Shown: positions 12,296 through 38,695 of the stretch, piece after piece | Numbering within the stretch: the first letter of the stretch is position 1 | Layout of the letters: each line of letters starts with the position of its first letter | Assembly (NCBI GenBank): GCA_019973155.2 | Contig: BPQB01000029.1 | Location: forward strand, 248,001-312,000 | Source: Phanerochaete sordida | Taxonomy: Eukaryota; Basidiomycota; Agaricomycetes; Polyporales; Phanerochaetaceae | DNA: 64,000 nt | Reading direction: 5' to 3' | Program-made: the position numbers and the translations under genes | Notes under the pieces: model-generated | Database searches by the model: none | The model's input: only the letters and a program-made list of their open reading frames with translations | Told to the model about the DNA's origin: nothing

Positions 12296-13344
12296 CTAAT
12301 AAATGCTGAAGTCCGACAGCAGGCGGATGCTCTCACAGTCTACTCTGTACCAAACCTCGCGCACGATATTCTCATAGCACATCGAGTTGTCCATCGTATA
12401 CTCCATAGTCAGGCTCGTGACCGCCTTGAGCTCCTCCGAGAGGCAGGAACGCATGCGCTTCTGGTTGCTCTCCAGAAGCGCGGCGATGTCCTGGAGGTGC
12501 ACGGCCTGCTGCGCGCGTGGAGACAGATGCCCTGAGGGGCCGGCGCCTCCCCAGTACAGTCCGGCGTTGCACTGCAGCTGCACCTCGAGTGCGCGCAGCG
12601 CCGTGAAGCGCGAGAGGCCCTCTGCGAGCGTCGACCACACCACGTGGTCCGTGAGGCTCGTCACGTAGGGGGAGCATTTCATGCGGATGTGGATGCGGAT
12701 GCGCGGGATGTCCGGCGGGAGGCAGGAGAGCACATCGTGGCAGAGATGCTCGAATGACCACTGGGAAAGGCGTCAGCCGGGACGAAATGGACAAGTGGGA
12801 ATGGTACCTACCGTGCTGTTCCACCAACGCACTTCCACAAGATCAAGCTTCGTGCAGCGCGCCAGAGCGTGGAGTCTCGTGAGCTCTGTGGTATTGCCGT
12901 GGCCGTTGTCAGTGAGGTCCTTTCAGCGCGTGACGAGGCAAACTGACCGCCGTCTTGCGACACAGTCTTCGTCCGAGGAGCCATGCTAAACAGCACGAAT
13001 GTCTTCAAGATATCGCGACGGCTCTCCAAAAAGTCGTTCAGCGCCTTTATACCCAGCGGGTTATCTCCCCATTCCTTGATGTACGTGATCTCCAGCGCCG
13101 AGATCGACGATGGCGTGAAGATCTTCGCGAGAGCGCCCAGGACAGTGAGACCTGTACTGTCGATCTTGAGCGACTCCACGTGCAGGTGGTGCGATTGAGG
13201 CATTTGGGTACTGTCCAATATTTCCTCCGCGTAGTAAATACTGAGCCGATCTGCGCGCTGGAATAGGCGGAGATGTTCGAAGAGCCAAGCCTGTGTTGGT
13301 GCAAGAGATGAAGTGCCCGAGGTTAACCTTTGTCGATGGTCCAT
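12296..13344 (-). pseudogene. 3' half of an F-box-type gene, cut at the transposon terminus
   Basis: Exons 13,344-12,948, 12,885-12,812 and 12,760-12,296 remain in frame for 311 codons. From AWLFEHLRLFQ onward it matches the C-terminal half of the intact gene at 60.5-62.4 kb (NWIFEYLRLFQ...), including the same three-exon tail: a short exon ELTRLHALARCTKL, then one starting WSFEHL. The N-terminal F-box half is missing. The first residues (MDHRQRL) are encoded by the terminal repeat at 13,320, which supplies the ATG. The missing half is found on the same strand and in the right order at 38,689-39,494. Whether the remnant is transcribed is unknown. Confidence 0.8.
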
Positions 13345-13375
13345 CGTACAAAGGTTAACCTAGAGGGGTGGCGCC
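13320..13375 (+). repeat. Left terminal inverted repeat
   Basis: Reading inward, this end gives AGGTTAACC followed by a 19-bp block CTTTGTCGATGGTCCATCG (13,328-13,346), then ACAAAGGTTAACC, AGAGGG and GCGCC. The right end read inward from 38,695 gives AGATTAATC, the same 19 bp without mismatch, ACAAGAGATTAACC, AGAGGG and GCGCC. The core is itself nearly palindromic around GGTCC, but the central T/A asymmetry and the shared AGAGGG...GCGCC extension fix the relation as inverted. Confidence 0.85.
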
Positions 13376-13614
13376 TAATAAAGGTTAACCCGTAGGCCTG
13401 TGGGGTATATTCAATGATTAATTCCTACCCGGCTCGGAGTCGAACGCAGGCCAAAAAAAGGTCACAGCAAGGAGCAGAAACCACTGCACTACTCAGTTCT
13501 CCATAGATCTCTAAGCCATGGCTATCCAATTCGATGTACCTTGCACCGCTCCGCCTTTTGGCGGCGCCAGGCCCTCGGCTTCCGCGGATTAACCTAGGCT
13601 TCCATAGATTAACC
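13353..13614 (+). repeat. Left subterminal GGTTAACC motifs
   Basis: Perfect GGTTAACC copies lie at 13,321-13,328 (within the terminal repeat), 13,353-13,360 and 13,383-13,390, with GATTAACC variants at 13,587 and 13,607. An 8-bp palindrome is expected about once per 65 kb by chance, so the cluster is meaningful. By analogy with other DNA transposons these are candidate transposase-binding sites. Confidence 0.7.
13425..13505 (-). tRNA. tRNA-like module inside left end
   Basis: On the minus strand an A-box match TAGTGCAGTGG (13,481-13,491) is followed about 45 nt later by a B-box match GCGTTCGACTCC (13,436-13,447). The stems are imperfect and no anticodon can be assigned, so this is a tRNA-derived or TFIIIC-binding-type sequence rather than a functional tRNA. 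Its B-box is about 120 bp from the outer terminus, close to the spacing of the mirror copy at the right end. Confidence 0.45.
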
Positions 13615-13861
13615 CCGGCGGCCGGTCGCGGACACCTTTGTGGCGTTCAGATACAGCCACGCCGCCAGCGTAGCATCAGTGAGGATATATTACAGACAGT
13701 AGCGAGGCGTGAATAGCATAACAAGACAAGAGCAGACAAATGAGCTCCAAGAGCCCAGCAGTAAGCAGCGAAACCAAACGAGAACATAGGTCAGCAATTA
13801 TGTACCAGAAAGCATAAGTGTTCCAAGATCCAGACACGACGACAGCGAATCAAAGTCCAAA

Positions 13862-14470
13862 CTACAAATGCACCTCAATGTGCACGACCTCCTCAATCGA
13901 CCAGGGCCCGAAGTTGAAGAACACCACATTAACGTGCTGCCGGGTGTCAGCCTCCCGTCCAAGGCTAGATCCAGTGTGGTGGGTTGCTCTACGCCCAGTA
14001 AGGTCAGTTCAAGTGCGGTACCCTGAAGCGCGAGATACTTGCACGATGCACGCTCTACGCATGCCTCTCCTCCTCGCGTCCAGGGCCTCAGGCGAGTTCT
14101 TGACCTGCCACCAAATCTTGCGTTTCTTCTCCACGTTCCTGCTGTACATGCTCGGCCACCTGAATATAACTTCGAAGTCGCCTCTGAAAGCATGTTAGCA
14201 CTGGAAAACGACGGCCTAAAGGTACGTACGGCCTTGCGTTCAGCCTCTGTTCAGCCTTGGCTGCCAGCATCTCCAAAAACAAAGCACGACGCATGGCGCC
14301 GAAGTGCAGGCCCGGTGGGGAGAGGCAGTCGGAGCAGATGTTCTCAAGAGACCCAAGAGAGAGTGAGGATGGTGGACGTTGAGAATGGCGTACTGGGCGC
14401 CCGCTTGGCGCCGCGAGAACAGACTCTCGCGGTTGGACTGCACTCCCTCCACACCCTTCCACTCTCCTCT
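13862..14470 (-). CDS. Possible spliced hypothetical gene
   Basis: A minus-strand chain with credible introns: an exon containing ENICSDCLSPPG and LFLEMLAAKAEQRL, an intron GTACGT...TTTCAG with a GCTAAC branch site, an exon with DFEVIFRWPSMYSR and KRKIWW, and a last exon 13,988-13,862 ending VVFFNFGPWSIEEVVHIEVHL. The 5' end and one middle junction are unresolved, so the span is approximate. The RWPSM segment and strand-rich ending are faintly like the WPGY-motif proteins elsewhere in the window. It lies just inside the left end of the element. Function unknown. Confidence 0.4.
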
Positions 14471-14824
14471 GCACTTCATCCTCGACCACACCGCTGATGT
14501 CGCCCATCCTTCGCGTCCACTCTCTGTACCCACCCCCGGCACTCACCACCACGCAACCGGAGACGACGGGTCCACACAGGGTCGGCAGTACACGAGGTGA
14601 GTGCACTGTTTCCTGTCTCTCCTCGACCCTCGCCCCTCCACACCGCCGTATACCACGCCAGCCGCGATCCTCGAAGACGAAGACCCCGCGCGCGATCACC
14701 ACGGCCCGCCAACAACCCCTCCCCTCCCCCTTCCTCCAACCCTCTCGTGCACGCCCGCCCTCCCTGTCACCCGCACCGCCGCTGCCCGTGCACGCGCGCC
14801 GTCGCCGTCACCCGCACCGCGGTC

Positions 14825-15450
14825 GCCCTGCAGCGGGAGGGCCTGAGCGTGCACCTGTCGCCCTGCAGCGGGAGGGCCCGAGCGTGCACCTCGGTCGCGA
14901 GCCGCGTCGCGCGACGCGTGCAAGGCCCGACGTCTGCCATCGTGCAGGCCTAGCCGCGGCGTCGCGCGACCGGTGCAAGCCCGACGTCTGCCAGCCAGAC
15001 GCCGCGCGCACCGCCAGCGTCGTACAGGCCTAGCCGCAGCGTCGCGCCGAAGACCTCGCGCGCATCCACCGCGGCCTTCCACCGTCCCTCCACCTCCACC
15101 TCCCCCACTTCTCGTGCACGCGCCCCGTCACACACAGCGCCGCTGCGCCGCTGCACACTGCACACGGATTGCTTGTGCAGCGGGCGGGCCCCTGCGCGTC
15201 GACTGCCCTGGCGTGCACTGCTAGTCGCGCGCCGCTTTCAGCCGCGGCGTCGCGACACGGCCACCGACGTGCAGGCTGCTGGTCGCAAGCCGCCGACCTT
15301 CGCGGCTAGCTTTCAGCCGAGGCGTCGCGCGACGTGCAAGGCCCGACATCGGCTGGTAGACGTCGGGCTTGCCATCGTCCAGGCCTAGCTACGGCGTCGC
15401 GCGACGTGCAAGGCCCGACGTCTGCCAGCCGCCAGCAAGCCGCGGCTTCG
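14825..15450. repeat. GC-rich degenerate tandem repeats
   Basis: Two copies of a roughly 42-bp unit (CCCTGCAGCGGGAGGGCC core) at about 14,828-14,905 are followed by four to five diverged copies of a unit containing GTCGCGCGACGTGCAAGG and CCCGACGTCTGCCA up to about 15,445. The spacing is irregular. No coding role is apparent. Confidence 0.6.
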
Positions 15451-18040: not shown

Positions 18041-19782
18041 CTACCGGAACTCTGCAGCCCTTCTGCGATCCTCGGGGGCCGGAAGATATCCCAGCTCAGC
18101 TCGGCGGGCGTAATACCCGAACCTGTAGCAATAGCCCACAGACCTTTTCTTCATGACCATGAACACCTCATCGGGCAAGGGCGTGTCCTGTCCGTAGGTT
18201 ACCCAGTCGCAGCTGTTGGCGTCCCATACGCGAAAGCTTTCCGATTGCCCGATGCCCATGTACTCCCGAATTTCTCCGATGTCGGCGTGCGAGCGCAGGG
18301 TCATCGGCTCGACGACGCTGATCTTCATCATGACGGGCTCTTCGCGCGTGCCCCTGCCCACGATCTACGATATCGCGAGGTCAGTATTTTTCGAAACTTT
18401 CGGATGGCTGTGGGCGCTGTACCTCTCGGTAAAACGCAATCCAGCGCCATTGCATGCTCCGGCTCCCCGTGATGACCACATCGCTGTCTCCATCGTCATC
18501 GCGTACGTCGTCGTCCAGGCTCGTGCGCGTCGTAGTCCCGCGATCGCCCTGCGTGTACGGTTAGTCGTGTTCTACGAGTCACGCAGCATACTCACGTTTC
18601 TCGCTGACTCCCCACTCATCGCCGCGGCAAGCTGACGCGCGACCGGCTCAGCTCCTTGACGTCCCGGACCGTCGCCGCTACCGTCCCGCGCGCCGCTCAT
18701 CGCCGCGGCCATCGTTGAGGTGCGGGCCTCACGGTGCCTGCTCTCGCGCGGCGGTGCCCCGTCAAGGTCGTCGAGCACTTCCACCTCGTCGTCGTCAACC
18801 TCCGGCCGTGGCTGGAGGAGCACCGGTGAGTCGAATGTTCTCCGTCTCCAGACTGAGCGACCGCTTACCACATGAGGAGTCGCGCGCGGCGGTGCCCGAT
18901 TGGCTCCATCCTCCTGCTTTAAAACGCCCTGAGAACCCGAAGTCAGCTCACGATTCCGAACCAGAGCATGCGCTGCTTACCTCGTCGTCAAGGTCGTCGA
19001 GCACTTCCACCTCGTCGTCGTCAACCTCCGTCTTGGGCCGTGGCTGGAGGAGCACTGGTGAGTGGAATGTTCTCCGTCCAGACTGAGCGACCGCTTACCA
19101 GATGAGAAGTCGATGGCCCTGCCCTAGAATCTTCTTGCGACCGCACTAGCGCCGATGACTCTCGCAAGGCCCATTCCAGTGCTTCGTTTTCCTCGGTCGC
19201 AGAGCTTGGCCACATCTGTCCGCCGTTCAGTCGATGTCCGCCCGATAGCCATCATGTGAATCACGTACCTGGGGCTCAGAGCCCTGAGGATAATCGAACG
19301 AACCGCCGATTTGTCAGTAACGCCTTGTGGGACGATAGCTTAACCACGTACCCCGGAGTCTATGCCGAAACCGTCGTCATCGCCATCTGAGTCCTCCGCA
19401 CGCTGTTTACCCCTCGCCTTCTCGGATAGCGGAGCAGTCATAGAACCACCTATCACGCTGAAGGCCCAGAGTATCTCAGTCCGTGAAGGATCAACGCCCA
19501 CAGACCCGCAAAACGTACTTGTGAGGAAGTGATCCAGCCTGCCGGGGCCTTTTCGCGGCAAGTCCGGCCGAGGCGTCGTCGACCGCTTTTCGCTTCCCAC
19601 CGGCTACGGTCTCGTCCACCTGCGATTGCGGTGGCGAAGCCCAAGTCGCAGCGAATGAGACAAGCCCCGCCTGCCGATGTCATGGAAGGACGCACCTTTG
19701 ACGATCGGCTTGCATCATCTTTCGCCGCCTGTGCCTCCAGCTGCACCTTGCGAGGTGCCTTGCCTCCTGTGGTCATGCGCAT
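18041..19782 (-). CDS. Acidic/basic nuclear-type protein of unknown function (399 aa)
   Basis: Nine exons close in frame: 19,782-19,696; 19,619-19,519; 19,457-19,352; 19,215-19,099; 19,043-18,981; 18,928-18,869; 18,811-18,596; 18,548-18,423; 18,364-18,041. The N-terminus has basic stretches (GGKRKAV, AAKRPRQ) suited to a nuclear signal, then an APLSEKARGKQRA motif that I associate with agaricomycete mobile-element proteins. Two acidic segments (VDDDEVEVLDDLD) come from duplicated exons. The C-terminal 110 residues look globular and aromatic-rich (SFRVWDANSCDWVTYG). The last gene of the minus arm of the element. No domain recognised; accessory role inferred from position only. Confidence 0.65.
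18755..19106 (-). repeat. Duplicated ~120-bp exon-intron unit within a gene
   Basis: About 18,755-18,875 and 18,980-19,106 are near-identical: both carry the 3' part of an intron (GTAAGCGGTCGCTCAGTCTGG), the CTCCTCCAG acceptor and an exon starting PRP and encoding EVDDDEVEVLDDLD. The copies differ by small indels (a 6-bp deletion keeps the frame). The duplication created two acidic repeats in the 399-aa protein. Confidence 0.75.
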
Positions 19783-19842
19783 ACCACGACTTGCCCGCGC
19801 GGCTGGGCTGGGCTACGGTCATCGTTAGGTCCCTGTATCGTT

Positions 19843-20838
19843 CTATAACCCCAGGCTACGCACTGAACTAGGGGGAGAACTGAGATCCATTATCTCGTCT
19901 GCTACTCGGGGAGGCGGCCATCGGCGACTGGTAATTCTCTCGTTGCTACTTCCCTGTTCCGTAGGCTTCGTGTCAGAGCGATCGGGCGGTGGAGCTGGAG
20001 CGGTTAACGTCGAAGGGGACGAGTCGGACGGCCGAGAACGTGAAGACGCCGCCCTCGACGTCGACGGCGACGACTCTGCCGCCAGCGAGCCCAACGGCGA
20101 CGAAGACGACGTGCCCTCTGCAGGAAAGTCGCCGTACATCAGCTCGTAGTTTTCGTACCGCAGCCCGACACCTGCCGCCTTCCGACGCTGAGATACAAAC
20201 ACATCAGAACTATGCAGAAATACCTACGGGGATCATACTCACCAAGCGATCGGCACACTCATAGCTCAGGCGCGCCCGCCATTCATGTTTTTCTTTCGCT
20301 GCAAGAACAGCTTTCTGAAGCTCCTGCAGGACTTCGTCGTCCAACTCGTCCCCTGCCGCGTACTCCTCCTGCTCGACGGTCAGCGTGGTGCTAGATACCA
20401 CATCGAAAAGTCGACTCACCCTCGTCTGTACAGCCGCTTCCCATACTGCCTTAGCCTTCTCCTCCCTTTCCTTCTTGGGAATCAGGTCCTTTGCCGTCTG
20501 GTACTCTACCTCTGCCGCAGTCTTTGTTCGTTTGGCGTCCTCGTCGGCTTTCTTCCGGGCGTCCTCGTCGGCTTTCTTCCGGGCCTCATCTTCCGCGCTG
20601 AGGATAGTGTGATGCAGCGCCAAAAAACAGTTCCTGCACTGCAGCCAAACAGTCAGACGACCCCAGAGACATGGGAGACTTTACTCACCTGATGATACCA
20701 CTTGCCCATATTCTTCTTGCTTTTGCCCAACCCACGGTTCAAGTAAGGGCCGGAGAACGGGATGCAGCCGCAGCGCGGACAACGTTTTGGCGGCTCCAGC
20801 CCCGCTGGGGGCTTCCCATCGAGAGGCGTCGTGTCCAT
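19843..20838 (-). CDS. Zinc-ribbon plus coiled-coil protein (296 aa)
   Basis: Exons 20,838-20,689, 20,638-20,243 and 20,187-19,843 join in phase 0 to 296 aa. A four-cysteine module, CPRC near residue 20 and CRNC at residues 51-54, is formed across the first intron, with GKWYHQ between; the pattern recalls GRF-type or zinc-ribbon fingers that bind single-stranded nucleic acid, but I would not claim that family. Then comes a charged helical segment with a tandem EARKKADED/DARKKADED repeat, likely coiled coil (about 70-180), and a Ser/Pro-rich tail. The first exon and intron were duplicated upstream (see 20,606-21,900). Part of the element's minus arm; nucleic-acid binding is inferred. Confidence 0.65.
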
Positions 20839-21900
20839 AGGAGCCAAGAGGGCGAGCAGGAATCCGCGGTACGCGGGAGGAGGTGTGAGTAGGTTATGCA
20901 CGGGTGGAAGCCGGTGAAAGAGGGTGAGGGGCAGGCAGGCAAGAGAGACACACTTCGTCCGGTCCTCGCTGAAATTTTAGGATCGCCGCGCAATTTTCAT
21001 CACTCGTAGCCGCCCCGTTTCCTCATTGTGGCGTCCCGCCGTTACGTCGGGTCTGGGCCACAAGAGCCGTTTTCCCAGGCGCTCATTTCAGGATGACCAT
21101 TGTCGTACGCGCCGAGATCTCAGGCCGAGGAGGATGGCGCCATTCGGCCGTCGTGTAAAGCTGACAGACTGTCTAACGTTCGTGCCTAGGAATCTACCAC
21201 GATATCGGGTCCCTCCTCTACGTCTCACTGGCCATGTTATGTCCTCGGCCTCTAGTGTGATGCACCGCCAAAAAACAGTTCCTGCACTGCAGCCAAACAG
21301 TCAGACGACCCCAGAGACATGGTAGACTTTACTCACCTTATGATACCACTCGCCCATTTTCGTCTTGCTTTTGCCCAACCCAAGGTTCACGTAAGGGCCG
21401 GAGAACGGGATGCAGCCGCAGCGCGGACAACGTTTTGGCGGCTCCAGCCCCGCTGGGGGCTTCCCATCGGGAGGCGTCGTGTCCATAGGAGCCAAGAGGG
21501 CGAGCAGGAATCCGCGGTACGCGGGAGGAGGTGTGAGTAGGTTATGCACGGGTGGAAGCCGGTGAAAGAGGGTGAGGGGCAGGCAGGCAAGAGAGACACA
21601 CTTCGTCCGGTCCTCGCTGACATTTTAGGATCACCGCGCAATTTTCACCACTCGTAGCCGCCCTGTTCCTCATTGTGGCGTCCCGCCGTTACGTCGGCTC
21701 TGGGCCACAAGAGCCGTTTTCCCAGGCGCTCATTTCAGGATGACCATTCTCGTACGCGCCGAGATCTCAGGCCGAGGAGGACGGCGCCATTCGGCCGTCG
21801 TGTAAAGCTGGCAGACTGTCTAACGCTCGTGCCTAGGAATCTAACACGATATCGGGTCCCTCCTCTACGTCTCACTGGCCATGTTATGTCCTCGGCCTCT
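20606..21900. repeat. 648-bp tandem direct duplication
   Basis: Copy 1 is 20,606-21,253 and copy 2 is 21,254-21,900, joined head to tail with about 98 % identity by eye. Each copy holds the promoter-proximal region, exon 1, the first intron and the start of exon 2 of the zinc-ribbon gene. The near-identity points to a recent event. Confidence 0.9.
21218..21486 (-). CDS. Stand-alone zinc-ribbon microprotein from the duplication (72 aa)
   Basis: Exon 1 (21,486-21,337) and exon 2 (21,286-21,218) repeat the first 60 residues of the neighbouring 296-aa protein, including CPRC and CRNC, then the duplication boundary replaces the coiled coil with about a dozen unrelated residues ending TRGRGHNMASET. 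Donor, acceptor and all four cysteines are intact, so this could be a truncated pseudogene or a short zinc-ribbon protein competing with the full-length one. The full upstream region is shared with copy 1. Confidence 0.45.
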
Positions 21901-21983
21901 TGCGCGGCGCTCCGCCAATGATCTCGCTGTCCCTAGGGAAGGATTGCGTCAGGCCCTCTCCGCACTCGCGCGCAGATGATGAA

Positions 21984-24197
21984 CTACCTTTCCAGCCGAT
22001 CGACAGTCCTCTTGCTTATCCGCGACGGACGACCGGGTTCGTCCCCGCCCTGTTTGGCAGGTTCTGAAAGCTGTTGGTCCCTAGGGGCGCTATTTTTACG
22101 CCCTGCCTTCGCCGCCGTCGGCTCGCCTTTCGCCCGTCCTTTGGCCCCTTGGTGAGACGCAGAGACCTTCGTAACTTGGTTACCCTGGCGTCCACCTCGA
22201 GTCCTCGCCCCTCGTCCACCTCGAGCCCTCGTCCCTCGCGCGCCACGACCCCTGCCCCGGCCTCGGACAGAGCGAGCGATAGGCACGTCCTCGGGATCTT
22301 CGCTGGGAAGTCGAAGATCACCAGGTTGCTGAACGGGCATGAGGGGTGAATCCAGGTTCTCTGCGTTGGTGACGGTCAGATAGCTCGTTGCCAGAGCTCG
22401 CCGCGTGCGTGCTCACCGATTCCGCCCCACTCCTCCTCGAGCTCGCTTTGGCCTACTTCGCCGCCGAGCTGCGCTTCGTCCTGCTCGTCATCAGAGCCAC
22501 GACCACCGCCCTGCGAATCTTCGGGCAGCGGCTCCGTCTCCTCGCCGAACTGTACTTCATCCTGCTCGTCGTCCGAGCCACGACCATCGCCCTGCGAATC
22601 TTCAGGCGGCGGTTGCGTCGGCGTAGGGCTGGCTAGAGCAGGGCCTGTATAGACGATTCCCGCCGCTCGACACGCCCGGTAGATGTGGTATCCAAGAGAC
22701 TCACCCGCTTCGTTGCTATCCTCTGGGATCGAGGCGTCGTCCCCCTCCGGCGAGCTCCGCGGGCTCGGACGGTCTGCCAACAGTATCAGATGTGTGCGAG
22801 ACGAACGAAGTCCAAGTGGGCTTGCCTTCTTCACCTTGCTCGTCGTCGCTCGGCTCCAGCTCGCTGCCTTCGGGATTTTCTACGGAGTATACGTTAATAC
22901 GCTGGCCTCCCCCACATTGAACGACGTACCGAAGACGTCGTGGCCCCAGCCCAGGATGACGTGGTACAGCTTGGCCTCGCTCCAGCCAGTCGCATGCAGG
23001 AGCCGATCTTTGAGTCCCTCTCCCTCGGATGTCACGCCAGCAGTTTCTCTGTGCATTCGGCTTAGCGTCACTTGAATTCCTATCGTGATCAAACGGTAGC
23101 TTACGCAAAAACAGCTACTGCACCGGTCTCGTCCAGTCCCGCTAGCAGCACGACCCCAGCAGCGCCCGTGGCCTGCTGCCACGCCGCTAGAGAGCCCTGC
23201 ATATGCTCTGACAGGCCAGCAACATTGCTTGAGGACAAGTCAGCCGACATCCGTGGCCCCAAGCGAAGCACCGCTCACCGGATTCGCTCGGCCTCTGTCG
23301 CCGGCCCGGGATTGTCCTTCGCCGCCCTCTCGCGGGCGGCCATCTGCTGAGCGTTTCTCTCGTCGGCGAGCTTCTGGTACTGCTCTTTGCGATCCGCAGG
23401 CAGCGCATCGTACGCCTTCGATATCCTCGCACGCCACGCACCGATGTCGCTCTTGTCGGCACGGCCAGCCGCGGTCTTCTTCCTGGACGGCACGTCGTCA
23501 TCCCCGGACACCATGAACATGTGAGAGCCCGTGTACACGAAGTCCTGGGCCGGTCGCACAGGTGGGATCGAGCCCCGCTCCTGCTTCGAGATCCTCTTCC
23601 AGTAGTTCTTCACCCACGTCACAATCCTCTGCTCAAACAGTATGAGTCCTGCAACGCGCTTATAGATAACTCGAGAATACGCACACGTCCCACACTTTTG
23701 AACCGCGCGGCGTAGTCCTGGCAGCTCTCGCCCTGCTTGATGGGCAAAAACCTGGCGTCCTTAGAGTTCCCGTACTTGTAGATGCGGCCCTCATACTCCT
23801 CCTCCGTCTCCATCGCCTTGTCCTCGCGCACCAGACCAAGCTTGGCTTTCAACTCCTCGAAGAGGGCGGCCGCCGCCCTTGTATGGGTGCCCCTCTCCCA
23901 CGCCATCTTGTTCTTCTTGTTCAGCTGGTACTTGCTCGGGTCGTAGAACTTCTGGACTGATGGCAGCTTGCGACATTCCTCCAGCAAGGCGCTCTCAAAC
24001 TCAGTCCACTCCCTGGAAGGTCATGTTCAGCGCGTTCACCGCATGCTCGCCGGTCTCGACGTACTGCCTTGGCTTCCGCTCATCTTCTACCTGTGCGCTT
24101 TCGGCGGGCATGGCGGACCGAACCAAGTCTCGCGAATCCAGCAGAGGCGCGCTGCGCGACTACGCTGGCTCGCCACACTTCTTCCCGAAGACCGCAT
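21984..24197 (-). CDS. Nine-exon protein with acidic and RG-rich tail (578 aa)
   Basis: Exons 24,197-24,091; 24,012-23,694; 23,628-23,279; 23,227-23,105; 23,048-22,930; 22,879-22,835; 22,773-22,705; 22,644-22,417; 22,360-21,984 close in frame. An alternative in-frame ATG lies at 24,368. Residues about 35-260 are helical and charged (WTEFESALLEECRKL; ISKAYDALPADRKEQYQKLAD, vaguely HMG-box-like), followed by a hydrophobic segment GVVLLAGLDETGAVAVFA. Then come twin acidic repeats (PEDSQG-GRGSDDEQDE) and a C-terminus rich in RG repeats (RGRGRGRGARG) and lysine. The composition fits a nuclear nucleic-acid-associated protein. Second gene of the element's minus arm; family not identified. Confidence 0.7.
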
Positions 24198-24316
24198 GGT
24201 CTCTTCTTCGTGAGGGCCCAGTCCGGCGGTAGGAAAGTTCACCAGGGAGAAGGGTCTGCCAAGAAAAAAGACATGGTAATTATCAAGAGCCGGATTACAT
24301 AGTGGAAATTCAGGGG

Positions 24317-27772: not shown

Positions 27773-29446
27773 TTGACGCGTTCCCGGGTCAAGTTGTTAC
27801 GCAGCGCCCAACTGGTCGCTCAAGATCTCGTTCAGCACCGTGTTCAACAGTGCCAGATCATCGAGACCTCCGTGGATTTCGACAGTTTGCTACAACAGGC
27901 ACTATCCGAGGACGCAGCCAGAGCGGCTCAAGACGACGACGACGACGCCGATGGATGGGAGGTAGAGACTCGCGAGGAAGAAGCTGCTCACTCCCCTGCC
28001 GATCCAGCCCCTACTCCTACGCCCGCCGCTGAGGTCAGGTCCAGCGCCTTCACCGCCAAACGTTCGGCGAGCTCTCCGCCACCTCTCTCCGTCTCAGAAA
28101 GCAGCTCGACGCCACCCTTTCGCAAGAAGGCTCGGCGCGGCAAGAAGAACCCCGAGAAAAAGCAGTCGGACGCGCGGATGGAGAGAAGCAGACAGGGGAA
28201 GGAGGCCAAGGCAGCGAAGAAGAAGGCGGGCGCGAGCAGCCTGAATCACCAGCCCTCTCGCCATGCCCTCGGCAAACGCACGGAGCTCGACGTGGTCGAC
28301 ACAGGGTGCGACCATGAGCCCACGCTGCATGTGTCGAAGCAAGGCTTCATAGGCCGGCGGCAGGGTGTCGTCGAGGCTTTCAGCACGGTGGAGGCGTACA
28401 TAGAGGCTGGCTACGAAAGGGTCTCGTGGGACGGGAGGTGCGTACCTAATCCGCGGACTGCATGTCGCCGTCGCTCACGAAACGCAGTACTACCCATGGT
28501 CTCGCAGGCTTCGGGAAACGAGTCTTTGGGCTGATGGTCGGGCGACCAGGGGAACCGACGTACATGGAGTCTGTCCGCCGTTTGGCCACTGCCATTACAA
28601 CTGCAAAAGACAAGATGGGTTTCGGGAACCGACAAGATCGACGGGGTACGTTTTCGACCATTGCGTACGGGATTTCCTACGGCGGCGGCCAGAAGGTGTG
28701 TGTGTCGGTGTCGACCCTTGGCCTGTCTGACAGCTTCACGCTCAGCGACCGGGCAATCTGCGGCACAGTGCTCAGAACATACGTGCGATGGAAGAACTTC
28801 TCGCAAATCCCGATATGCAACGGCAGGCCTCGTACGCGAAGAGTGCGTGTCCGTTTTTCCGCAACTAGACTATAGACTGACGCGCTGTGTACCAGGTATG
28901 TTTGCGACCTACTTTCCAGACCTGTACGACGAGTACGTGCAGACCCTGGAGAGTCTGCACGAGGACAATCCGCTGCTCCGTCCGCTGTTCGACGGGTGTG
29001 CCTGGCCAGCGGTTTCAGTCAATTTTCCGCCGAACTCCTTCTCGCACATTCACACCGACGCAGGGAACAAGGCCAACGGGCTATGTCCCATCTTCTCCCT
29101 CGGCGACTTCGACCATACGAAAGGCGGCCACCTAGTACTGCCTGACCTCAAGCTCATCATCGAGTTTCCGGCGGGTTGCATCATCTTCATCCCTTCTGCT
29201 ACGCTTCGACATGGCAATATTCCTGTGAGGCCTGGAGAATTCCGAACATCGTGGACATTGTACGCAGCGGGCGGACTGTTCCGGTGGGCACACTATGGAT
29301 TCCAGACCTGGGCCACTTGGAGCGCGAAGAACTCGAAGAACACGGAGATCTTGGACGCCGACAAGAAGGCGCAAGGTGAGAGGTGGTGCCGCGCGCTGGA
29401 GATGTTCCCTACTGTAGACAATCTTCGAGCACGAGCAGATAGATAG
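27773..29446 (+). CDS. TET/JBP-type 2-oxoglutarate/Fe(II) DNA dioxygenase
   Basis: Exons about 27,773-28,437, 28,488-28,695, 28,746-28,842 and 28,896-29,446 join in frame (506 codons); the 5' end is open, since no ATG suits the frame before an intron acceptor near 27,770. The N-terminus is acidic (DDDDDAD) then basic (FRKKARRGKKNPEKK), fitting a nuclear protein. The catalytic core has the fungal TET/JBP signature YGGGQK-RPGNLRHS, iron ligands His 29,051 and Asp 29,057 (HTD), distal His 29,210 (RHGN) and the 2-oxoglutarate-type Arg 29,243, followed by YAAGGLFRW. All ligands are present, so catalysis is plausible. The family oxidises 5-methylcytosine or thymine in DNA; the substrate here is unknown. 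First gene of the plus arm. Confidence 0.85.
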
Positions 29447-29975: not shown

Positions 29976-32900
29976 ATGAGTTCTGCAGCCGATAGCCGAG
30001 CCGACGAGGTCACAAGGGGGAAAGGCCCGGCAGAGGGACAGTTCAGCTCCGATAGCCACGAGGAAGGTATGGCGGAGAAATTAAAGGAGAGAACCTGGGC
30101 TAACCCATGGTGAGAAGTAGCGGCACGCGGTAATGGTATCAAGTTGCATTTGGGAAGTGGAGAGTACGTCATGGACGTAGACGACCCACGTAAGAGCATG
30201 AAACGCTAGTCGTTCGGTGCGGAAAGCTGATGTAGGATCGGGGCTATAGAATTTGTGACAGCGCGCGAACACGGCTGTCTGCGAGGCATTTGGCTGGTGT
30301 CAAGAATCAAGCAGCCCTTGGACAAATGGACCGGCCTGCCACCGTCATACTTTACAAGAAGACCCATAGGGCCTAGCCATCAGTCGAAGAGTCGACAAGC
30401 CTCACCGACAGAGTTCAGGAATCTGACGTTTGCAGTATTCCTTGCGGAACAAAAAATCGACCCGGCCGTCACATCCGTGGGGCTCAGCGGTGATCTGTGG
30501 ATTGCGAGGAACACGGCCCAGTTTTTTGACGGCACTCGATGGATCGACTGGCAATCAGGCGCACTTCACCAGCATCCGTGGCTAGACGCTTGGCTGTTGT
30601 GGAACACAGCAACCCATCGGCTTGTCTATGCCAGTAAGCCTCAGGGGCAGCTTGATTGGCGTCGGGAAGGCGAAATAGATCAGCTCGAGAATGGCTTCCG
30701 GACCCGAATGGACGGCATCGGCGTCGAGCAAGCACTTCGGGGAGTCCTTGATCTGATCCCGGCGGCTGGTCTCGCGCGGGAGCTTCCTGGGCAGATTTTA
30801 GCGGCCATGCTATTTCTTGTATACAACCCTGACTGCGCTCTGGAGCAGCCCAAGGTAGGCTTGCCTGTCAATCAACCCGGGATACCGACTGACGGTGGGC
30901 GACAGAGCGGCAGCAAGAGATCGACTCCCGGACGAATCCATCCACCGGTCTGGGATCTCAAGAGAGAACCTCCGGAGCTGTCAGCGATGTACAAAATAGA
31001 CGGCTCTCCCGCACCCGAAAAACCACGAGAACCGGCGAGAGCTGACAGCTCTCGGGACACGAAGCCAGACTGTGCAGCGCCGGTATATGGGCCGCTCAGA
31101 AAGGGTGAACTGAGACTTAACGGAGAGGTGACGATGACCGCTAAGTACATGCACATCCCCGGGGTACGCTAGCATCAGACGCAGTCGAAGCGATGGCGCT
31201 GATGCGAAAGAGCAGGACTCAGACGGCGATATGGTCAGGAACATGACGGAGGCGGAGCCGGGGCATCTTCCAATTCCGGACAATCCCCTTGAAACCCATC
31301 TGCGCGCCGCTGGGGCTCCGATATTCGTGTTTGATCGCCACGATCCCAGTGTGAAAGACCGGTCTGACATCGAGGTGGCCAGATTGATCATGGAACAGTT
31401 GCAAGACGGGCGACTGGTGGTGATGGACGGATGCGATACTCCGAACTTGCCCTGGACGGACGAGACGTTTGCGCGTCTCTGCGGAGGCCTGACCACGAAA
31501 GGATGCAGCGCAAACGTTCCAGTTGAGTGGCAGTGTGCGTGGGCTGGAATGTAAACCCAACTGCGGGAGCTGAAATTACTTCCAGCGAGCGACAAGCGTC
31601 AGGAAACGCGAGCAAACCCGAAGGCGGGGCTTCACGAGAAAGGCCTACTTAGCGAGCTAGTGAAGCGGATTCAAGAAGACCAATCGGGCGACGCGCCACT
31701 CAACCTACTGGATTTGCACACGTCGGAAGATTGGGCGACGGAAATCATAAGGTAAGACAGTGCTCCGTTCGCCCGACAAATGCCTGAATGGCATCGTGCA
31801 GGTATCTCCGCCACAATGTCCTCGCGTCGACTCCTCTGCACGGGATGCCAGCGGACACGTACTCGACACACGTGAAAAAAGGCCAGAGCTGGGCACTGGT
31901 GACGGGGAAAGGTTACTTCACTTATCCTCACGCCGACGGATCTGGCTTTGCCACCTTCGTCATGGTGACCCATGGGCGCAAGTTCTGGTGCATCCTGCAG
32001 ATGAAGTCGAAGACACCGAGCGCTGAGGACGTGGCCACGGCTCAAAGCCTGGCGGATGAGGCGTTCCAGCAATATCTAAAAATTGCTATGTACTCGAATT
32101 CGTACGAAGATGCACCAATCGAGCTTCCGGGCCTAGCGACTCTGCACTTCATCACATTGAAGCCCGGAATGATTGCGTAAGGCCCTGCTGCTGCTGTTGT
32201 TCCGCCATATATCGCTGATCGCTTGGCTTTGAGCAGCATCCAACCTCCTGGGCTGTTCCATCAGGTGTACACACCGGTAGATACCATCACCGTTGGCGGG
32301 CATTTCCTCGCAGAAGACACGCTGCATCTCACTCTAGTATGCCGACTGGCAGTGAATCGTGCAGCCGGAGCAGGGGTAAACAACTACCACGAGGGTACTT
32401 GTCGAGAGATTGCCCGTATGCTTCTTGCACAAGTAGCAAGAGGGGAACCGTTCAGTGAGTGGCGCAGTTCAATCAACGTCGTGAAAGGGCTCACACCAGG
32501 AACTGTCTAGTGAATAAGCGTGGGTTCATTGCCTTATGGCAAATGATCACGCAGCGCAAGCTGTTTGCGCTGGCCGACGAAATCAAGGAGGATCCGGACG
32601 ACGACGACTTGGTGTTTTTCGACACCGAGTTCGAGGTCAAGCTAGCGGCAGACTTGGCAAGACGGGTGTTCAAGCACAACGGGCTGGAATGCGAGACGTA
32701 CCAGCTGAATGAATCGAATCCCGTGCCTTTCTTCGGGGACGATCTGCCATGGTACAAGCGCGGAGACGAGACCGTGAAGCTGCCAAGTAGCTTGCGGGAG
32801 TTCATGGAAAACCAGGTCTTAGAGCACTTGGAGGGGCAAAAACAAGCACTTCTAGCCAGGCAGATCGAGCGGGATAGAAAGAAACAGGCCGAGATGGAGG

Positions 32901-33130
32901 CCGAGATGGAGGCCGAGATGGAGGCCGAGCGCGAGAAGAACAAAGGCGCGAAGGGCAAGAAACGCGAAATGGGACAAGCCAACAGTGCTGGACAAGCAGC
33001 TGGGGCCAAGGGGAAAGCGAAGCAGACAAAAGGGGTCAACTCCCGGAAACGGAATGTCCAGGAGCCCAGCGACACCGATGAATCGCCCCCTACGAAGCGG
33101 ACGCGGGCACGAAAGCCAAAATCTGGGTAG
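29976..33130 (+). CDS. JmjC-type 2-oxoglutarate/Fe(II) oxygenase
   Basis: Eight exons (29,976-30,066; 30,115-30,189; 30,250-31,163; 31,216-31,521; 31,570-31,751; 31,802-32,176; 32,237-32,454; 32,511-33,130) close in frame at 926 aa. The JmjC core lies at about residues 550-680: HADG gives iron ligands His566 and Asp568, GRKFW supplies a lysine (583) suited to 2-oxoglutarate, and the distal ligand is His656 in GLFHQVYTP, completed across an intron. The N-terminal 350 residues are of unknown type; the C-terminus has a 12-bp-repeat-coded EMEA run and basic nuclear-type sequences (GAKGKKREM, TKRTRARKPK). JmjC enzymes hydroxylate or demethylate proteins such as histones; the substrate here is unknown. 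It sits between the TET/JBP and transposase genes on the same strand. Confidence 0.8.
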
Positions 33131-33565: not shown

Positions 33566-36500
33566 ATGTCCGGTGCGAAATCGAAGCCGAAGAGATCGAA
33601 GAGAGGGGCGACGTTCAGCCTGGCGGGATCGGGAGCCGTGCGCTCGATGTCGGGGACCTTGTCCAAGCTAGCCACAAAGCCGGGGGACGCGTGGGCGGCT
33701 TTGAAGCGGGGAAAAGCAAGCGCTCCCTCGTCTGCTAGCAAAGAGGATGCTACTGCTCCACCCGAGGGTGTCGTTGGCGACCCAGCGCAGACGGAATCCG
33801 TCCCACTGCCTGCGTCAGGGGCTGCGGAAGGCGACGAGACGGAGGAGCAAGAAGGCGAACGTCAGGGGGTTAAGAAAGCAAAGGTTAACAACACTATAGT
33901 ACGTAATCATGCCCCGGCAGCTTGTCATTCTTGATCTGACCAACGTGCACAGCGACCTTCGGAATACATGAGAGAGTTCGTGGAGAAGCACGCGAAACCG
34001 GCACTATACGCTATGCTGAGGCGCGAGCAGGGACCGTGGAAGGGCTTTGTGTGTCGGGGGAAAGAGTGTACCTCTTCGGGCGAGCAGAAGAGTCAAGCGT
34101 ATCGGTGTTTTGACTGCCACATGCCCCCTACGCTATGTCGGGCTTGTCTGCTCGCATCTCACACCCATACCCCGTTTCACTTCGTGCAAGAGTGGGACCG
34201 AAAGAGGGGATTTTGGCGACGGAAGCCGTTGACGGAGCTGGGAGTCGTTCTTCATCTTGGGCACGAAGGTCGGCGCTGCGAGCACCGGAAGCGGGATCCA
34301 CGGCCGATGTGCATCGTGTCCGAGGAAGGGATCCATCAGCTCCGCGTCCAATTGTGCGAGTGCCCAGATCCGACAACCAGTCTGCCGCAGCCAGATTCGA
34401 TACAGCTTCTACAACACGGGTTCTGGCCTGCGTCCTGGAACGAGCCCCACACCGCTTTCACCATCAGTCTATTGAAGACTTTTAGTCTGCTCGCGAACAC
34501 GGCGCATGTCAACTCGTATGACTATTTCCAAGTCCTCCGCCGCAAAACAGACAATGTTCGCCCAAAGGATGTGCTGGTGAGTGTCAAATGACCAGATACG
34601 GCAAGAAAAACCATACTAACAGCATGTTTGTAGAATCGCTATCGGGAGTTCATGACAGCGTCGCGGACCTTCAATCACATCACCTCGCTCAAGCGGCATG
34701 GAAAGGATGTCCGAGGCCTGGTGTATGCGTCCTTGGCAGTGCTTTGCCCTGCCTGCCCCCAGCCGGACAAGAACATGAGTCCAGGATGGCGACAGCGGGA
34801 GCCAGGTCTCCGGTAAGACAGCCAAGTTTCTGTTCTTCCTGAGACCGTCGAATCTAACGCAAGTGTCAGGTTCCTGGACGCGCTGTTCTACGCGATAGAT
34901 GGGAACTTCCATGCGAATCTCCGGGACAAGCCGATGGACCTCGAGGACGTTCCTCTGTCGCAAGGGGCGGCTTACTTCGCGGACGAAGAGGCCTTCGCGG
35001 CTTACCAAGAACACCTAGGGCCTCTGGGTCGAGAGGTACGCGTCAACGCGAACCTGGTGAACCGCGGACTGATTTATGTGTTATAGCCAAGCACGTGTCA
35101 CAAGTTCGGCGCTATGGGATACGGTCATCACTGGGGCAAAGTGTCTGGAACGGTGGGCGTTTTTTGTGCGCGTCACATGATGGCTGTTCCGGGAGGACAG
35201 GTCGATCTGCAGAAGGGCGAGCGGTGAGTCCAGGTCCAGACTGGGAGCAGCCGGTAGGAACTGAACGGATCTTGAGATTCAAAAACGTCGACTTCGCGGT
35301 GATATCGGGGCTGCAGGGCTGGATGGATCTCTTGATGCACGTCTCAGCGTACGACATTCAATGTCAATATCGAATCAACTTCGATAAGCGCATGAAGGAG
35401 TTCAACAAGCTGCGGAAGAAAATAGGAGAGCTCGAAATCATTCCCAAGAGGGAGACGGAGTTCCCGTGGACGCTTCCAGGCGTAGGCAAATTTCATCTAG
35501 CAGGACATAAGCTCGCGTGCCGTTTCAAGTTCTCGTTCAACCTCTTGCCGCAGTCAACGATGGTCGACGGAGAAGCTGCAGAGAGAGTGTGGCCTACGAC
35601 GAACGGCATGGGACAGCGCGCGCGCGAGATGAACCCAGGCAATCGGCACGACACCTACAACGAGCTCTACAGTGATCAAAACTCCAGACGCGAGCATGAC
35701 ATGCGTAAGTACATTTCGAGGACGGAAGGGACGATGCTGATGCTGGTCCCGTAGCCAACACGTTGAAGGCAAAGTTCGTGACCGCCAAGAAATACCTCAC
35801 GTTGGCGACGGACCACCTCAAGGTGCTAGAGGAGGTCATCACAGAGCACGACCGCGAGAAGGGGGCGAAGCTGCTCGGATGGCAGGCGGAAGAAGCGGAG
35901 TGGAAGAGGAAGGTAGTGGACCTGAAAGAGCACGCCGCGCTGTGGAACCCGTATGATCTTCCGAAGCCAGCAGGTACGTTTCAGGACCTTAGGCCAGAGC
36001 GAGTACGTCTGATTGATGGCTACCGTGCAGCGAAGATGCAGAAGGATATTGAAGACGAAATTCGCGGCACCTTTGAGCGGCCGGAGTATGGGCTCAACCT
36101 CGCGGGAGCTATCGAGGAGGGCATTGCACTCGAAGCGGACAAGTACGTGTGGCCGATTGTCTGGGTTGTCGTACAGGATGCTGACCGTGGTGAAAGGTTC
36201 GACCTGATGGCGGCCATCGATCGCGACGCGACGGAGGAAGAGTCCTCGAAGGCACTAGAGAAGCTCGAGAAGTCCGTCGCCGCGTGGGATGAGAAGAACG
36301 CTTTGATACTGTCTCCAATCATCACGCAAGCCACGTCAGAAGCGCATGAGGCAGCAAAACGCCTGCAGGCGGTCCCGAGCGCCACACCGAACCCCGACCC
36401 GGACGCGAGCTCGTCCGGAGATAGTCAGGCGAACGTCCAGTCTGCGAGTGGCCCACGAGGCCAGAAGCGCAAGCGAGACGCAAGCGAGAAGGATCCGGTA

Positions 36501-37533
36501 CCGGAGAAGAAGTCTAAACGCTGGCTCCAGGTCGAGAGCGTCACTATCGTCCTACCATCCTCATGCGAGCCGAACGTGCGCCAGCAAGCATGCATGGAGA
36601 CCGCCATAGCATTGGAGGTCAAATTGCGAGTGGCTCAGGCCGAAGTGGCGCTTGACACCGTACGGACCCATCTCATCACGGCTCACTCGTGGAAAAACCT
36701 GCTCAAGAAGGGAGACACTCGATCAGAAGAGAGCACGCGCGAGACAAGACAGTCGAAGGCTGTGAAGGTCAAGGATCGCCGCGTGCACGACGCAGCGCGC
36801 CAGTATAGACAGGCGTACAATGCGCTCATGGCTCTCGGCTACAAGAGCGACAAGTACCAGCCTCTTGAGAGGGGAGACATCCAGCCGTTTGAGGTAAACA
36901 TTGTTGATACTGCGCTGGGCCAGAGCAGGAGGCAGGCGTCGTGGATCTGGAACGAACTGAAATTCCTAGACAATGAAGACGTCGCCAAGAACTTCACGAA
37001 GTACGCAGAGAACGGTATGGCGCCATGGTTTTGAAACGAGCATGTGCTGATCATGACTTTGCAGCGGTCAAAGTACACTGGTTCAGGACGAGCGCGACGA
37101 AGAGCAGGTGGGAAGAGGAGTACGGAGCTGTTTTGGAAGAAATGCGCCGGTCAACGCGGTTCTACAAGTTCAAGCATCATGAGTGGCTCGACGCCGGCGA
37201 CAGCCAGGAGGCTGCTGGAAATGCTGGCCATGCTGCGTACGCGCGCAAGTGAGTGACCTACTGCTGGGGCCTACGCGCTGCGTCTGATGGTGATGCCTAG
37301 GCAAGCATACAGATACGAGCGACTCATCGAGCTGTGTGCCGAGCGCTTCGAGGGCATCGAGGGCGTCGACGTCGTGAGTGCTTCAATCTGCTTGGCGTAA
37401 GCATAACCTGATGTCTCGTAATCTCAAGCCTTCCATCCGCCACTTCCGAAAGGTGTGCGATGTCGTGCAGCCCATGTTCTTCTGCGAAGAGAAGTGGCAG
37501 TACTACCCTGACCTGTCGGAGGACCTTGACTAA
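33566..37533 (+). CDS. KDZ-family transposase with CxC2 cysteine cluster
   Basis: Ten exons (33,566-33,898; 33,953-34,576; 34,634-34,812; 34,870-35,035; 35,087-35,223; 35,277-35,704; 35,755-37,014; 37,065-37,248; 37,301-37,373; 37,429-37,533) give 1,162 aa without a stop or frameshift. Exon 2 holds the CxC2 zinc cluster (CRGKEC, CFDC, CRAC). CPACPQP precedes the catalytic core. Candidate triad: Asp 34,898 in AIDGNFHA, Asp 35,353 in YDIQCQY, Glu 35,572 in VDGEAAERVW. The C-terminal third is helical, with WEEEYGAVLEEMRRS typical of the family. A 57-nt segment in exon 7 with perfect splice signals reads through in frame. The start is the first ATG in frame; an upstream exon cannot be excluded. 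It should cut and insert the element ends; completeness suggests recent activity. Confidence 0.9.
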
Positions 37534-38054
37534 GGCATCAGCTGTAATTGAATCGAGTGTCCCCAAGTGACTGAAATATTGTGGGCTCGAGGGCACGTCA
37601 TGTACGGGGGACTTCCCGTGGCGCTGTACGACGCTCTTCTGCGCCGCTCTCGTAGCGCACGGCACTCCGGAGCGCGGAGAACTACCCATCGCGGGCAGAG
37701 TACGATGCCTGCGCAATCGCACAAACTTCTACGTGGGTACGGGAGCAGCCCGCACCATTTCGGACGTGCGCCACTCCCGCTGACCATGAGACGTACTGTG
37801 TCTGAGCTGGGGTCGCTCCCTGCGACATTCGCTGCTAACGGCGAACGTCGATCATCGCCATATCGCCATGCGTGTCAGGAGGAACGCCAGCGGTGTCCGC
37901 ACAGATCGACGCGGTCCCCGCGACCGCCGTGGCCTGTCGCAGCGCCACGCGAACCACCGCGACGCGACGAAGGTCGAGTATCGGGCGTGAGATGTGCCGC
38001 GTGAGGACAGCAGCAGCTCTTGGGCTAGGCTGACCAGCGCGAGAAGGTAGAACG
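37534..38054. other. 3' flank of transposase, no gene seen
   Basis: About 0.5 kb between the transposase stop and the subterminal motif array. Only chance frames. Confidence 0.5.
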
Positions 38055-38301
38055 GGTTAACCTGTCCGGGAAGTAGGACAGGTTAACCCATGCCGTCAGG
38101 TTAACCTGAGACAACGGGTTAACCCGTTCCATGAGGTTAACCTGACGGAATGGGTTAACCGTATGGAACGGGTTAACCCGTTGTAATTCTTGGTGGTGAG
38201 CTTAACCTCACAGAACGAGGTGACGCGATGGAAACACAGAGCGCGTCGACCCGATCATGGGTTAACCCGTAGAATAGGTTAACCCGAACAATAGGTTAAC
38301 C
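38055..38301 (+). repeat. Right subterminal GGTTAACC array
   Basis: Ten perfect GGTTAACC palindromes at 38,055, 38,081, 38,099, 38,117, 38,135, 38,153, 38,171, 38,260, 38,277 and 38,294, plus a GCTTAACC variant near 38,201. Five consecutive intervals, from 38,081 to 38,171, are exactly 18 bp, and two others are 17 bp, so sites fall on similar faces of the helix. The same motif marks the left end. Candidate transposase-binding array. Confidence 0.85.
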
Positions 38302-38499
38302 CGGAGCGACTTCGCTCAGCTAGAGGGGATGGTGGAGAGTGGCGCACCAGTCACGGCGTGTGAAGAATAGGTAGCGCCACTTGATTGACGTTCAAAAGAC
38401 AGAGCGCCACAAAGGACTCGCCGCAGCGACGCCACAAAGGGCAACCCTTGACGGTGTGAAAGGGGAATCAGAAACGGTGATAATGGCTGCACTTGACTG

Positions 38500-38585
38500 T
38501 ATATACAAGCGGTGGTGGTGTAGTGGATGTCACACAGTCTTTGGTCGATTATGGCAGGGGTTCTAACCCTGGCCGCGGCCATTAT
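38500..38585 (+). tRNA. tRNA-like module inside right end
   Basis: An A-box match TGGTGTAGTGG is followed about 45 nt later by a perfect T-arm-like hairpin CAGGG-GTTCTAA-CCCTG (B-box GGTTCTAACCC at 38,559-38,569), and TTTT occurs shortly after. The acceptor arms pair at about six of seven positions with one bulge; no anticodon arm is convincing. It lies about 130 bp from the outer terminus, mirroring the module at 13,425-13,505. Confidence 0.5.
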
Positions 38586-38639
38586 TTTGTGACCATTTAA
38601 TTTATGCCTGAAGCCATTGCTGCGTTCTGATTGGCTGGC

Positions 38640-38695
38640 GCTTCGGCCCTCTGGGGTTAATCTCTTGTCGATGGACCATCGACAAAGATTAATCT
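38640..38695 (-). repeat. Right terminal inverted repeat
   Basis: Mirror of the left terminus: the perfect 19-bp block is the complement of 38,669-38,687, bordered by GATTAATC outside and GGTTAATC inside. The outermost bases provide the stop codon (TAA) of the interrupted F-box gene. Confidence 0.85.

Follow-up and report, generated by a model that had tools for sequence, protein, structure and literature searches.

The window analysed here, a 64,000-nt stretch of the Phanerochaete sordida genome, contains a KDZ transposon with six gene models: three uncharacterised genes on the minus strand, followed on the plus strand by a TET-like gene, a JmjC-like gene and a CxC2-KDZ transposase gene. This divergent two-arm gene set had been recognised in the initial annotation, which also counted at least four accessory genes; we find three uncharacterised genes in addition to the two oxygenase-like ones. 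The ends of the transposon were set by homology to other loci and, because this homology extends 18 nt outward on both sides of the interval originally proposed (13320-38695), the bounded 25.4-kb unit stands but its limits move to 13302 and 38713. A direct repeat, GTTGGTG, lies flush with these homology-defined ends as an intact 7-bp target-site duplication (TSD; 13295..13301 on the left and 38714..38720 on the right), and the match becomes shorter when the ends are shifted by up to 3 nt. Removal in silico of the element together with one TSD leaves an open frame of 423 codons running through the junction, in which the 3' part of an interrupted host gene (12296..13301, minus strand) is continuous with its 5' part (38721..39494, minus strand), the frame resuming at 38721. 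The transposon sits as a single unit of 25,412 bp in this host gene. The interruption agrees with the initial annotation, but its F-box label for the host gene holds only as F-box-like, by a motif; Pfam gave no match to it at E 0.1. A second full-length copy of the element was not found in this assembly, which counts against the main explanation proposed below.

The element begins with CA and ends with TC. Its left tip (CAAGAGATGAAGTGCCCG, 13302..13319, plus strand), where homology ends at 13302 or 13301, recurs at the loci C180 and C132 with no mismatches to a degenerate pattern; two-mismatch left tips at C1, C11 and C139 are at chance level, since the reversed control gave 8 matches. The right tip (GACCAACTGAAGTCGCTC, 38696..38713, plus strand) has an exact copy at C180 and one- or two-mismatch relatives at 8 further places, against none in the reversed control; of the 10 matches to the right-tip pattern, six were read (C29, C180, C12, C22, C38 and C64) and C5, C40, C45 and C108 were not. 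Directly inside the tips lie palindromes at 13320..13361 (single-strand DNA fold z -7.13; common to C180 and C132) and 38655..38695 (z -5.99). These had been taken for inverted terminal repeats, a reading that is ruled out: the outer 18 nt of the two ends are not inverted copies of each other, the best local match begins 18 nt inward, and the matching arms (13320-13360 and 38655-38695, complementary at 83% of 41 nt) are palindromes inside the tips. Because each arm is itself a palindrome, inverted and direct repeats are indistinguishable at these terminal blocks. The subterminal palindrome arrays, by comparison, are borne out: besides the palindromic terminal blocks, the window holds 13 copies of GGTTAACC, where 0.40 would be expected; every one of them lies within the element, and ten of these sites form an array at 38055..38301 that contains a hairpin (38099-38184, z -11.36). 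Rfam microRNA matches in this array fall below the family cut-offs and reflect the hairpins.

Further inward, both ends carry outward-facing pairs of Pol III-type A and B boxes. The left module (13437..13491, minus strand) lies 190 nt from the tip; a T7 run separates its two boxes, and the B box is not followed by a T4 run. The right module (38516..38588, plus strand; kept at C180) lies 198 nt from the tip and has an A box, a B box 44 nt on and a T4 run 16 nt past the B box. Of the right tips read, six out of seven have such outward boxes 168-198 nt inside, as does one left tip out of three, against 48 of 30,000 control segments with a pair. The controls were taken from the window and from already-sampled loci rather than from the genome at random, and the pattern was loosened once the first modules were known. 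The loci C22, C38 and C64, chosen by the 18-nt tip pattern only, each carry the pair 168 nt in, followed by a T4 run 16 nt past the B box, and a pair is also present near the proposed right end of the diverged locus C88. The modules had initially been described as mirrored and tRNA-like. Their outward orientation is confirmed, but true tRNA genes near the ends are ruled out: ARAGORN (bacterial settings) reported no tRNA in the window or in 20 loci scanned, Rfam found none in the window ends, and its one tRNA match in any scan was weak (16.1 bits, cut-off 29, E 0.83). Nor is the alignment of the left and right modules better than chance: it scores 17, and 500 shuffles gave a mean of 14.8 and a maximum of 29.

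The gene models were built with a splice-aware gene finder that imposes open frames by construction, and that all genes are in frame is therefore not independent evidence. The transposase (G6; 33566..37533, plus strand; 1132 aa model, 11 exons) matches Pfam CxC2 (98.7 bits, cut-off 27, 2.7e-28) and KDZ (89.7 bits, cut-off 26.6, 2.9e-25) well above the cut-offs, in agreement with the initial annotation. On the minus strand, G1 (18041..20838; 687 aa model) has a Cys-rich N-terminus, and a tandem duplication of about 650 bp (20605..21918; 97% and 95% over two parts) covers its start and holds a second copy of that N-terminus; its C-terminus is conserved at C88 (E 5.7e-7 over about 100 aa). G2 (22016..24111; 555 aa model) also has a match at C88 (E 2.6e-4 over about 105 aa); neither protein had a Pfam match at E up to 1. 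G3 (24317..26698; 758 aa model) is a conserved uncharacterised protein found at eight loci in this genome, the window included; six relatives are present in the database, and three of these are assigned to P. sordida. Its dN/dS is 0.13 against C20, with dS near saturation, and 0.13-0.25 across copies, many likewise with dS near saturation. At four loci outside the window (C88, C183, C210 and C2) G3 and TET-like genes are no more than 10 kb apart, against 0.06 expected under a uniform distribution; of the genes of the element, G3 accompanies TET-like genes most constantly. The predicted fold of a G3 relative (pLDDT 45) was too poor for use.

The two oxygenases hold only as TET-like and JmjC-like, because both fall below the Pfam curated cut-offs, and the initial assignment to TET/JBP and JmjC is kept in this weaker form. 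The TET-like protein (G4; 27714..29446, plus strand; 501 aa model) keeps the HxD...H...R residues and scores 17.2 bits with Tet_JBP (cut-off 34.9). This profile matches four of five aligned members weakly (best E 1.9e-4), and the H and D of HxD and the later H are invariant in all five. Compared alone with the sequences of solved structures, the protein had no match at E 0.001, and the predicted fold of the TET core exon (pLDDT 39) was too poor for use. Among C29, C88, C153, C170, C183 and C210, dN/dS of the TET-like genes is 0.09-0.25 where dS was computable, with many pairs near saturation; like the G3 values, this points to constraint. TET-like and KDZ genes occur together at 2 loci against 0.16 expected, and other TET-like genes sit on contigs that show no KDZ match, for example C13, C6 and C9 (41 of 78 candidates scored). 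The JmjC-like protein (G5; 29976..33130, plus strand; 854 aa model) keeps HxD...H, and its 3' exons are uncertain, differing between two gene-finder runs. It scores 14.3 bits with Pfam JmjC as a whole protein and 18.4 for the domain alone (cut-off 24); JmjC and JmjC_2 each match three of four aligned members (best E 1.6e-3 and 1.4e-4), all four of which have the HxD...H triad, and the four-member profile matches KDM2A at E 2.9e-5 over the whole chain, the best single stretch reaching 0.021. No database relatives of the JmjC-like protein were found among 7,995/7,997 candidates sharing most words. Outside the window, no TET-like gene has a JmjC-like gene within 30 kb.

The expectation of copies with the same ends and the same cargo holds in part. 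At C88, G1, G2 and G3 on the minus strand and TET-like and KDZ genes on the plus strand stand in the same order as in the element, so that five of the six genes are kept and the JmjC-like gene is absent; a right tip chosen there by eye matches at 13 of 18 positions, a value reached in 23 of 300 shuffles and weak alone. C180, by contrast, is a 7.1-kb copy with both element tips and mostly other contents, and no matching 7-bp repeat was found in its flanks. C132 has only the outer 61 nt in common, its contig running out after a further 1.7 kb, and C12 matches over only 36 nt of the 251 bases read. By the initial annotation, short cargo-free elements made of the terminal repeats by themselves would speak against a large unit, and these three loci partly correspond to that description. 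In our view they are derivatives or fragments, or mark where another element begins, since the large unit is established independently by the empty-site test.

We consider it likely that the locus holds a large cut-and-paste KDZ transposon whose cargo counters silencing, with the A/B boxes as barriers or transcription units and the G1-G3 proteins as partners. The CxC2-KDZ transposase would act on the 18-nt tips and the adjoining palindromes, the TET-like enzyme would oxidise methylated bases on the element and the JmjC-like enzyme would remove or counteract histone methylation there, so that the two erasers would keep the transposase expressed under host silencing. The outward A/B boxes may bind TFIIIC and act as barriers or small transcription units, and the G1-G3 proteins may work together with either the transposase or the TET-like enzyme. 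Read from its predicted proteins, the cargo suggests anti-silencing as its likeliest function. Counting against this explanation are also the Pfam scores of both oxygenases, the C180 flanks with no matching repeat, and the JmjC-like gene, which C88 lacks, which does not recur near other TET-like genes and whose protein found no database relative among the candidates compared.

Several other explanations bear on parts of this proposal. The interval might consist of other repeats into which a smaller KDZ element is nested, the end motifs being accidental, as the cargo-free tips at C132 and C12 and the different contents of C180 between the same ends would allow; with a flush 7-bp TSD and a host frame restored exactly at the common ends, we regard this as very improbable. 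It is also conceivable, but clearly the lesser probability, that the Pol III-like boxes of the same transposon are relics or chance occurrences and that only the tips and palindromes matter for transposition. The tRNA searches, the left module with its T7 run and without a T4 run after the boxes, the tips without a pair (two of three left, one of seven right) and the relaxed search pattern fit that view, whereas the tip-selected loci C22, C38 and C64, each with the pair and the T4 run, and the diverged C88 speak against it.

As for the cargo, the oxygenases could be passengers or domesticated genes serving the host instead of the element's escape from silencing. TET-like genes on contigs without a KDZ match and the absence of the JmjC-like gene from C88 are in line with this, but the order with the transposase is conserved at C88 and that of G3 with the TET-like gene at all four paired loci, and we think such a role unlikely. 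Somewhat less doubtful, though still tentative, is the view that the TET-like protein has RNA or a different base as its substrate instead of oxidising 5-methylcytosine. It has Asn and Cys at the positions of Gly331 and Asp337 of CcTet in a weak alignment (E 0.3), which counts against the main explanation, since this Asp is reported to be indispensable for activity on 5mC (PMC12730594); the alignment itself is poor support for a different substrate, however, and the HxD...H core is kept. The anti-silencing transposon remains our preferred reading.

The KDZ group was reportedly defined in a 2014 PNAS paper, and TET-carrying KDZ transposons are already known. The element is most like the TET-carrying Kyakuja transposons, which according to Kojima 2025 (PMC12730594) have a KDZ transposase, a TET-like gene, a 7-bp TSD and no terminal inverted repeat (TIR), and are reported from Polyporales hosts. 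It shares these features and a 5' CA; its 3' end is TC, in contrast to the 5'-CA..TG-3' ends reported there for L. bicolor Kyakuja families, and on the weak alignment the AG-type residues (Asp337 in CcTet, with Gly or Ser at position 331; PMC12730594) are absent from its TET-like protein. It further differs in adding a JmjC-like gene, three uncharacterised genes, end-proximal palindromes and Pol III-type units. Zisupton belongs to the same KDZ superfamily but has an 8-bp TSD and TIRs, according to the same paper (PMC12730594). KDZ1-3 of Cryptococcus neoformans resemble the element in a KDZ transposase with a CxC domain and in insertion into genes, but are described (PMC12810828) as about 9-11 kb long, with TIRs of 139-241 bp, TSDs of 4-8 bp and CxC1 instead of CxC2. 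A CxC2 cluster precedes the intact KDZ transposons of Pleurotus ostreatus, as it does in the present element, in a description whose excerpted part names no TET-like or JmjC-like gene (PMC7641404). In the open-licence PMC literature, neither 'KDZ transposase' with 'JmjC' nor Kyakuja with tRNA and terminal was found together, and no such element appeared among the matches listed in a broader search of that literature.

The fission yeast heterochromatin boundary, as described in PMC4502379, involves the JmjC protein Epe1 and TFIIIC sites; the element supplies both a JmjC-like protein and Pol III-type B-box sites, and the likeness is no more than an analogy. We offer, as a speculation of rather low probability, a self-insulating transposon with TFIIIC-type barrier sites at its ends that encodes JmjC-like and TET-like erasers. 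If true, such a unit would combine boundary components of the fission yeast type with a DNA-methylation eraser and would keep its transposase expressed wherever it is inserted. An element whose limits are known to the exact base from its empty site here brings together two 2-oxoglutarate oxygenase-like genes, three conserved uncharacterised genes and Pol III-type units, and the opposition of a transposon to silencing through its own chromatin erasers would be directly testable in this white-rot fungus.

Pack-type transposons and Helitrons capture genes. The C180 derivative resembles them in carrying pieces that match three or more other loci, and differs in having KDZ ends and in being seen as a single copy, for which we infer the direction of capture; on this evidence, gene pieces captured from elsewhere may be carried between KDZ ends.

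The giant KDZ transposon in the window (contig C29, 248001-312000, of an assembly of 40.84 Mb in 222 contigs) spans positions 13302-38713 (25,412 bp) and is flanked on each side by GTTGGTG. The end blocks of the initial annotation are real, but homology with other loci places the true ends 18 nt farther out on both sides. When the element and one GTTGGTG are removed, one stop-to-stop frame, 423 codons long, runs over the junction, and a junction-spanning model of the host gene scored 43.9, compared with 22.7 for the left part alone, in runs whose start penalties differ by 2. Because the target-site duplication and the restored frame are two independent signs, we regard the ends of the element as fixed. 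The interrupted host gene, which looks F-box-like by motif, had no Pfam match at an E value of 0.1.

Six gene models were placed in the element by a splice-aware gene finder. Three on the minus strand (G1, G2 and G3) have no Pfam match at E values up to 1; the three on the plus strand, named from a Pfam search, are a TET-like gene, a JmjC-like gene and a CxC2-KDZ transposase. Of the scored candidates, only those at C29 and at C88, a diverged second locus, matched G1 and G2. G3 is present at eight loci of the P. sordida genome, window included, and its six database relatives comprise three from P. sordida (one being PsYK624_147050), one from P. carnosa, one from Cytidiella melzeri and one without an organism name. 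With many dS values close to saturation, dN/dS was 0.13-0.25 for G3 and, among the close TET-like copies, 0.09-0.25; TET-like comparisons with C13 and C6 gave up to 0.22-0.55. The start of G1 is duplicated in tandem (about 650 bp, 20605-21918), and the duplication is probably young, because its copies are 95-97% identical.

The TET-like protein has an HxD...H core and scored below the Pfam Tet_JBP cut-off. Its nearest solved structure is CcTet (E value 0.3), and because Asn and Cys stand at CcTet Gly331 and Asp337 in this weak alignment, the protein appears not to belong to the AG type described in PMC12730594. According to the same paper, TET+ Kyakuja elements, whose hosts include Polyporales, have 7-bp target-site duplications, CA..TG ends and no TIR. 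Among the features tested, our element differs from them in having neither the TG end nor the AG-type residues, and on account of these two differences we class it as a KDZ element whose closest counterpart is Kyakuja, rather than as a Kyakuja itself. Cryptococcus KDZ elements are described in PMC12810828 as 9-11 kb long with TIRs. HxD...H is also present in all four aligned JmjC-like members, that of the element among them; their profile matched KDM2A over the whole chain (E value 2.9e-5), with no single stretch below 0.01, and single-sequence Pfam scores were below the cut-off.

At C88, most of the gene set recurs, with G1 (88391-90091), G2 (90401-92792) and G3 (93109-95139) on the minus strand and the TET-like (100163-101672) and KDZ (104370-108255) genes on the plus strand. 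An unrelated predicted gene (C88:101828-103837) occupies the position expected for the JmjC-like gene, and a doubtful model lies between G3 and the TET-like gene. A TET-like gene stands no more than 10 kb from G3 at C88, C183, C210 and C2, compared with 0.06 pairs expected under uniformity, and no more than 10 kb from KDZ at C88 and C86 (0.16 expected if uniform). G3 and KDZ are this close only in the window, JmjC-like genes lie near KDZ once (C141) and near G3 once (C20), and outside the window none was found near a TET-like gene; these G3-KDZ and JmjC-like linkage counts speak against a fixed six-gene set. At C20:137463-149018, a G3 relative (66% identity) lies close to JmjC-like fragments, as if this were a former site of another such element. 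Two KDZ copies on C19 (255771 and 355123) lie 99,352 bases from each other and score equally in 4 of the 5 stretches matched; this reflects either segmental duplication or an assembly effect.

Each tip of the element consists of 18 nt without inverted repetition and is adjoined by a roughly 41-nt palindrome. The window contains 13 copies of GGTTAACC, compared with an expectation of 0.40, and ten of them fall in 38055-38301. The palindrome core with up to two mismatches was found only at C29, C132 and C180 (six matches; control 0), where the left tip pattern also occurs without mismatch; three further two-mismatch places for the latter are at control level (control 8). The right tip pattern was found, with up to two mismatches, at ten places, compared with none for the reversed control. 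One right-tip variant, repeated at C22:317809, C38:287849, C40:46413 and C64:123996 and near-identical at C45:238547, is the mark of a second family; at C22, C38 and C64, a palindrome and a Pol III-type unit are common to all three places read.

In 6 of the 7 right tips examined (C29, C180, C88, C22, C38, C64 and C12) and 1 of the 3 left tips (C29, C180 and C132), an A box and a B box in outward orientation, spaced by 42-46 nt, stand at a distance of 168-198 nt from the tip; these cases amount to three lineages rather than seven independent ones, as C29 and C180 are mutual copies and so are C22, C38 and C64. The box pattern was loosened once the modules of the window were known; C22, C38 and C64 were selected on the tip alone. 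The right tips of C38 and C64 allow an additional 36-nt reading of the pair, and a T4-T6 run follows 13-16 nt after the B box in all six right tips with a pair. Control segments of 240 nt, from 266,022 bases comprising loci examined here and the window, contained a pair in 48 of 30,000 cases; of 20,000 segments of that length drawn from the window beyond the element, none contained one. No pair was found at the C12 right tip (36 nt of tip match in the 251 bases examined), the C132 left tip (61 nt common, the contig ending 1.7 kb beyond) or the C180 left tip, where the boxes are degenerate. The cloverleaf of a tRNA is not preserved in these modules: an Rfam tRNA search gave one weak match, for the C22 unit (16.1 bits against a cut-off of 29), and none for the C38, C64 or C88 units.

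In fission yeast, boundaries make parallel use of Epe1, a JmjC protein, and of TFIIIC sites (PMC4502379), and tDNAs are barriers (PMC2040200). Modelled on these systems, the boldest reading of the element would be a self-insulating transposon, possibly bearing its own TFIIIC-type barrier sites at the ends together with JmjC-like and TET-like erasers.

Both tips also bound a 7.1-kb derivative at C180:1687-8782, which may be rearranged, because its flanks show no 7-bp duplication. It shares 13302-14797, parts of 16908-17647 and 38434-38713 with the window at 85-91%, and its interior matches C56 (81%, 1.6 kb), C27 (86%, 0.7 kb) and C6 (73%, 0.9 kb). The interior pieces may have been captured by the element, and in having pieces that match three or more other loci the derivative resembles gene-capturing Pack-type elements. 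Its gene-finder models include Glycos_transf_3 (8.2e-18) and Cu-oxidase_2 (20.2 bits, slightly below the cut-off of 20.4), as well as words that we take to be P450-like.
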